From Dactylorhiza incarnata (Eukaryota > Streptophyta > Magnoliopsida > Asparagales > Orchidaceae): DNA of 64,000 nt. Shown piece after piece: positions 46,664-46,747 of this stretch. The notes under the pieces were generated by a model. It was not told the DNA's origin. It ran no database searches and saw only the letters and a list, made by a program, of their open reading frames with translations. How positions within the stretch are numbered: the first letter of the stretch is position 1; each line of letters begins with the position of its first letter. The position numbers and the translations under genes were made by a program. The stretch is taken from NCBI GenBank assembly GCA_033032865.1, contig JAWHQI010000070.1, positions 10,186,001 to 10,250,000 of the forward strand, in the 5' to 3' direction.

Positions 46664-46747
46664 GTATGAATTAAAAATTAGCTTTTACATAGCTATTTGT
46701 GATTATACCGTTGTGCAACTGTATGTTTCTTTTTTTTGTGCAATTAG
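46664..46747 (+). other. Candidate intron between gag and protease of element 4 (84 nt)
   Basis: The stretch starts GTATGAATTAAA and ends TTTTTTTGTGCAATTAG. The exon side reads ACAG before it and GCTTT after it, a good plant donor and acceptor. It is AT-rich, pyrimidine-rich before the acceptor and typical in length for a small plant intron. Splicing joins gag and protease in one frame through a phase-1 glycine codon; retention stops the frame after gag. Confidence 0.78.

Follow-up and report, generated by a model that had tools for sequence, protein, structure and literature searches.

Most groups of plant long terminal repeat (LTR) retrotransposons carry gag and pol in one open reading frame (ORF), and in some groups there are two, of which the first codes for GAG or GAG-PROT; only Bianca and Ogre are listed as having a stretch between the ORFs (PMC6317226). 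In Ogre, a non-chromovirus Ty3/gypsy element of the Tat lineage, the two ORFs are separated by an intron that is removed from a subset of transcripts, and splicing permits the full polyprotein (PMC6317226). Among the Ty1/copia elements, the BARE1 intron is 104 nucleotides (nt) long and U-rich, has the donor CAG/GTAT, and its spliced RNA encodes Gag only (PMC3735527); the spliced RNA of EVADE likewise gives Gag only and the unspliced RNA gives Gag-Pol (PMC12786077). As for the chromoviruses, gag and pol form one continuous ORF in the Bongo families of Beta (PMC3605345) and a single ORF1 in rice Retrosat2 (PMC3485330), and in the centromeric chromovirus CRR splicing removes rt, creating two ORFs (PMC3735527). 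According to a 2025 review, introns are generally absent from plant LTR elements, Ogre and EVADE being notable exceptions; the review also mentions the splicing of BARE1 (PMC12786077). Here we analyze a stretch of 64,000 nt from the orchid Dactylorhiza incarnata (contig JAWHQI010000070.1; the whole stretch is called the window), in which a chromovirus-like LTR retrotransposon, element 4, carries a predicted intron between gag and protease. Our literature search, with subscription journals mostly outside its coverage, found no description of an intron at the chromovirus Gag/protease boundary.

We consider it very probable that a lineage of chromovirus-like Ty3/gypsy elements possesses a spliceosomal GT-AG intron at the Gag/protease boundary, with retention giving Gag, splicing giving Gag-Pol, and partial splicing giving an excess of Gag. 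That positions 46664-46747 are a genuine spliced intron is strongly supported, because the same codon is split in three families, the splice sites are conserved, the length drifts freely, and the intron has been lost precisely at several places in the tree of copies. Control of the Gag to Gag-Pol ratio by intron retention is likely, and we infer it as the best fit. Hence, of the regulated splicing at a different point that a sequence-only reading of the window had proposed, the intron itself is borne out by comparison, and the regulatory role keeps this lesser strength.

Compared with Ogre, element 4 would follow the same logic of an intron that separates two ORFs and a splicing event that would yield the full polyprotein. 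However, its intron lies one domain earlier, between Gag and protease, in another clade, and the unspliced message would encode Gag without protease. The Ogre-type position between protease and reverse transcriptase (RT) does not apply here, as the protease domain RVP_2 matches 3' of the intron, and protease and RT share one open frame. With BARE1 and EVADE, element 4 has in common an intron near the Gag/protease boundary and, in the case of BARE1, the CAG/GTAT donor, but the polarity is reversed, so that in element 4 it is retention, and not removal, that ends Gag; also set against these two, the element 4 family has genomic copies that lack exactly the intron. The Tekay/Del chromoviruses such as Beta Bongo and Retrosat2 resemble element 4 in domain order, long LTRs, and LTR ends of the TGT(A/C)ACACCC type, and differ from it by their single gag-pol ORF. 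The chromovirus CRR and the chromovirus-like element 4 have a spliced transcript in common (predicted in element 4), but the CRR splice is not at the Gag/protease boundary. As in the plant groups with two ORFs, the first ORF of element 4 encodes a Gag product.

The intron and the stop codons within it are the following.

46664..46747, plus strand: GT-AG intron of 84 nt within a phase-1 glycine codon (evidence from the sequence, the copies, and the empty sites)
46672..46674, plus strand: TAA that ends Gag on retention, unchanged in all 28 copies with the intron that were examined, among them element 4
46690..46692, plus strand: second in-frame stop, TAG, within the intron, altered in one of 28 copies (L029)

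Exon 1 ends with ...GTC ACA G at 46663, the intron runs from GTATGA to CAATTAG, and exon 2 starts with GC TTT GTC at 46748; the junctions thus read CAG/GTATGA at the donor and CAATTAG/GC at the acceptor. The split codon, GGC, is cut after its first base and stands between ...ADVVT and FVLILNYPARALFD... in the translation. If the intron is retained, the frame reads G-M-N-stop, i.e. Gag ends two codons past the glycine, and the pol frame reopens 3' of the second in-frame stop inside the intron. The stretch is distinctly AT-rich: its A+T content is 0.726, whereas the 84-nt windows of the element 4 interior average 0.504, and the only five of 4841 such windows that reach this value all overlap the intron, the maximum beginning at 46662. 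Using approximate matrices for splice-site scoring, we ranked the donor third among 312 GTs and the acceptor second among 375 AGs of the interior. The coordinates, the 84-nt length, the ACAG/GTATGA donor context, and the early end of Gag on retention had all been given correctly in the sequence-only reading, and both the AT-richness and the splice ranks are above chance. The same reading had noted that removal joins gag and protease at a phase-1 glycine codon. This holds, but we rejected the keeping of the frame as evidence for an intron, since 84 is a multiple of three, which places gag and pol of element 4 in the same frame, and since 20 of the 72 GT-AG pairs bridging the region also preserve it. 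The evidence for the intron therefore comes more strongly from comparison across copies and families than from element 4 itself.

In tblastn alignments of pol stretches, two further elements of the window, A on the minus strand and C on the plus strand, share 48-55% identity with element 4. Both have a GT-AG stretch at the same position.

17293..17383, minus strand: same-position intron of element A, 91 nt, glycine codon GGT
56688..56801, plus strand: same-position intron of element C, 114 nt, glycine codon GGG, one copy

A phase-1 glycine codon is thus split in all three elements, the intron measuring 84 nt in element 4, 91 nt in A, and 114 nt in C. The A+T content of these introns (0.73, 0.67, and 0.68) exceeds the 0.38-0.52 of the 120-nt flanks, and their U content is 46, 36, and 27%, as compared with 28, 27, and 20% in the exons. 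Retention ends Gag after 3, 21, and 9 codons in elements 4, A, and C, respectively, counting from the boundary glycine.

We searched for relatives of the Gag protein with Gag alone and with a three-row Gag alignment, and in each search the 7996 candidates with the most shared words were scored. Both returned the same two relatives among the candidates scored, P0001 and P0002. The closest named relative is P0001, a Gag of the orchid Platanthera zijinensis, which terminates in ...DVVTGTV, the same point as the retained frame of element 4, and the protein of the gene numbered next after it, P0004, which stands on a contig of equal length, begins within protease; this gene pair is known from protein records alone. 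The sequence of P0002 breaks off upstream of the boundary, so that it is uninformative there, and a database prediction from Coffea (P0006) has Gag and protease in one protein, an intron in its gene being beyond what this record could reveal. Two scans of viral contigs found no relative. One scan of genome contigs yielded eight plant-like contigs (L001-L008) within bacterial assemblies, which are probably contamination. These contigs come from assemblies named Labilibacter, Streptomyces, Solirubrobacter, and others, and encode gypsy-type protease-RT akin to that of plant retrotransposons. The boundary is readable in four of the eight (L001, L003, L004, and L005), and all four run through it uninterrupted in one frame. 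Two of them, L003 and L004, are alike in their reading, and L005 carries a stop 24 codons ahead of its boundary glycine. The short protein P0005 is likewise continuous at this point. Because elements 4, A, and C are interrupted and the orchid Gag ends there, whereas the four plant-like contigs and P0005 are continuous and the Beta chromoviruses are described as such, the intron seems to mark one lineage and not chromoviruses at large.

We collected copies of elements 4 and A (families 4 and A) from the 3.27-Gb assembly that contains the window. For family 4, 40 of 1806 first-look candidates were scored and 28 of these were read; for family A, 40 of 1152 were scored and all 40 were read. GT and AG are each present in 28 of 28 copies of family 4, so the conservation of the intron borders, for which an alignment of family copies had been advised, is confirmed; in family A, GT is found in 39 and AG in 40 of the 40 copies. 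The length of the intron is less constant. Six of the 28 copies of family 4 have a 1-nt indel within the 84-nt intron (lengths of 83 and 85 nt), whereas the flanks have a single indel each in gag (364 nt) and pro (352 nt). In family A, the intron is 90 nt long in nine copies, 91 in 19, 92 in ten, 93 in one, and 94 in one, with 21 indels in the intron versus four in 200 nt of flanks (counted per copy and partly shared by descent). Since the lengths in family A pass through all three frames, the stretch is not a translated spacer.

Precisely intron-less copies were sought genome-wide with an empty-site pattern built for precise loss, which joins 16 nt from the 5' side and 17 nt from the 3' side of the intron and allows up to three mismatches. 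In family 4 this pattern was found at 12 places (nine exact, two with one mismatch, and one with three), all with zero bases between the flanks, and in family A at two places (with one and two mismatches), where the flanks are 89-92% (L128) and 80-83% (L127) identical to those of element A; the reversed-pattern control gave zero in both families. By comparison, a donor-side pattern of equal length and tolerance occurs at least 300 times per strand (at least 600 in total; control zero), so empty sites make up no more than about 2% of the donor-side matches in family 4. The sequence-only reading had taken copies lacking the stretch as a sign against splicing. Such copies do exist, but they have lost the stretch exactly from splice site to splice site and do not go back to a single origin, which favours splicing.

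The history of the loss was examined on a tree of 38 copies of family 4, of which 26 have the intron and 12 do not, based on 2547 columns with the intron excluded and with L030 and L035 left out. The intron state changes five times on this tree, and at least three of the changes are forced by well-supported branches. A single origin of the intron-less state was seen in 0% of 200 bootstraps, and the grouping of all 12 intron-less copies was rejected (approximately unbiased test, AU p 0.0037). For example, the intron-less copy L039 is sister to the intron-bearing L051, and the intron-less L045 is sister to L060 and L061, which have the intron. Seven of the 12 intron-less copies form one clade. 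Target-site duplications (TSDs) were looked for in ten of the 12: six have exact 5-bp TSDs, all different, two have TSDs that agree in four of five bases, and in two the 3' end is outside the fetched stretch. The six exact and differing TSDs imply at least six separate insertions. Given the exact loss from GT to AG in two families and the multiple origins in family 4, the intron-less copies would most simply stem from spliced RNA that was reverse transcribed. Recombination in the course of that process may shift the intron state across lineages, but a spliced source would still be needed.

The proposed mechanism can be outlined as follows. Unspliced RNA would serve both as a Gag-only message and as the usual template for new copies, the latter because the great majority of the copies found retain the intron. 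Removal of the intron would fuse Gag to protease, RT, RNase H, and integrase in one frame and so provide the Gag-Pol message, and protease, too, would be made only from spliced RNA. With partial splicing by the host, Gag would be in excess over Pol, and occasional reverse transcription and integration of the spliced RNA would give rise to copies that lack exactly the intron.

A number of observations weigh against this interpretation. The case for splicing comes from DNA sequences. Splice scores are only moderate in the other two elements, the donor of element A ranking 29th of 228 and its acceptor 89th of 326, and those of element C ranking 10th of 193 and 45th of 335; one intron-bearing copy of family A has AT as its donor. 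Sites similar to a branch point, by the loose motif YTNAY, number one in the intron of element 4 (60 nt from the acceptor) and five in that of element A, and are absent from that of element C. Substitutions are no commoner in the intron than in the flanking gag (0.010 versus 0.021 in family 4 and 0.073 versus 0.105 in family A), in part because the copies were collected with a query that included the intron. Intron-less copies cluster on the tree (five changes versus a shuffled mean of 10.5, with none of 500 shuffles giving five or fewer), which means that most of them inherited the state, and template switching or gene conversion could carry one loss to several branches. The sampling behind the tree is also uneven, the intron-bearing copies being the best matches to element 4 and the intron-less ones being matches to a pattern.

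Chief among the doubts is whether splicing, rather than being merely tolerated, is partial and put to use. A real spliceosomal intron might be removed constitutively and have no regulatory role, the excess of Gag arising otherwise, e.g. by protein turnover. Intron-less copies seem able to multiply, perhaps with Gag supplied by other copies, as suggested by the clade of seven, which also suggests that the intron may be dispensable. Nevertheless, if RNA were spliced for the most part, retrotransposition would be expected to have erased the intron, whereas the donor-side sites number at least 600 against 12 empty sites, and an in-frame stop follows on retention in all three elements; we regard constitutive removal as unlikely. 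The intron-less state might instead be ancestral and the stretch a recent insertion in some copies, as could be read from the uninterrupted boundary in the related plant elements L001, L003/L004, L005, and P0005 and from the intron-less copies L065 and L066, which are deepest under midpoint rooting of a tree whose root was not inferred. However, elements A and C are split at the same codon, where the frame of the orchid relative also ends, so the intron is most likely older than family 4, and the intron-less copies are not one clade, all of which makes a recent insertion very improbable. An in-frame spacer crossed by stop-codon readthrough or frameshifting would suit the stretch of element 4, which is 84 nt long and in frame with gag and pol, but it is hard to reconcile with two in-frame stops, with family 4 copies of 83 and 85 nt, and with family A lengths that span all three frames, and it leaves the precise empty sites without explanation; we give it hardly any credence.

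A further question concerns the start of Gag, at which a second intron might be involved. Ahead of the Gag frame stands the codon TAG (45499-45501), which all 38 copies share; 31 codons into the frame, at 45595, comes the first in-frame ATG. An acceptor-like ATTATAG (45495-45501) abuts the frame, as ATTATAG/GCG. A leader intron with its acceptor at 45501 is possible, as is a start at 45595. The former could be extended to two successive introns and three RNAs, a leader intron ending in ATTATAG followed by the Gag/protease intron, which we regard as a doubtful proposition. A leader-intron donor in the LTR or the leader would then supply the start codon (no donor was found); the unspliced RNA would be a template only, the leader-spliced RNA would encode full-length Gag, and the doubly spliced RNA would encode Gag-Pol. 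The leader (45292-45600) is uninterrupted in 12 of 12 intron-less copies. This fits such an arrangement, since no genomic copy would ever arise from RNA whose leader splice had taken out the primer-binding site.

The remaining features of element 4 are as follows.

43210..52276, plus strand: element 4, LTR retrotransposon, bounded by LTRs and the TSD TCAGC
43210..45280, plus strand: 5' LTR (TGTAACA...TGTTACA), 98.7% identical to the 3' LTR
45502..46663, plus strand: Gag coding stretch 5' of the intron (exon 1 part), Retrotrans_gag PF03732
46748..47988, plus strand: protease and RT coding stretch 3' of the intron, RVP_2 and RVT_1
47992..50049, plus strand: RNase H and integrase coding stretch, starting after the in-frame stop 47989-47991
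50206..52276, plus strand: 3' LTR, paired with the 5' LTR

The TSD TCAGC is found at 43205-43209 and again after 52276. The LTRs of element 4 are young, with 26 differences in 2071 bp. The claim that the element is young and nearly intact is therefore only half sustained, as pol has two premature in-frame stops (47989-47991 and 50050-50052), a TAG precedes the Gag frame, and no ATG follows until 45595; the two pol stops also mean that element 4 is not an especially good copy for testing, let alone the best one. The second of these stops truncates the chromodomain-like tail, for which there is no Pfam match. The Pfam domains of the interior follow the order Gag, protease, RT, RNase H, integrase, which is the chromovirus order, and a CCHC knuckle is visible by eye in Gag without a Pfam report. 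In element C, a chromodomain (PF00385) scored 24.1 bits, below the cut-off of 25.1. On the basis of the domain order and this sub-cut-off match we call the elements chromovirus-like. Their putative assignment to Tekay/Del is made from the LTR ends, the LTR length, and other traits. Some copies of family 4 have an insertion of 39 or 51 nt in N-terminal gag relative to element 4 (at 45705-45722) and others have none; both states are found among intron-bearing and intron-less copies.

The window contains several other repeats. Two direct repeats of 1.1 kb with 95% identity (18566-19656 and 24802-25882) enclose about 5.1 kb of AT-rich DNA (19657-24801), the GC content being about 0.28 over 20-24 kb; the whole arrangement, 18566-25882, apparently lies within a long LTR of element A. 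GC-rich tandem repeats of 94-96 bp, built on CGCACGACC...GGTCGTGCG palindromes, occur at 3779-4005, 34234-34473, 42525-42752, 43295-43546, and 50291-50542, in several LTR-like repeats. A different Ty3-type element is found on the minus strand at 36565-40600, flanked by LTR-like repeats (33219-34730 and 41511-43035), and its pol is 24-34% identical to that of element 4.

An intron at this position could explain why gene finders split such elements into separate 'gag' and 'pol' genes, as in Platanthera. The natural intron-less copies, including the clade of seven, allow both states to be compared within one genome. A single gag-pol ORF leaves open how Gag comes to outnumber Pol, and the element 4 lineage appears to answer this question with a host-spliced intron at the Gag/protease joint, by which the genomic RNA would double as the Gag-only message.
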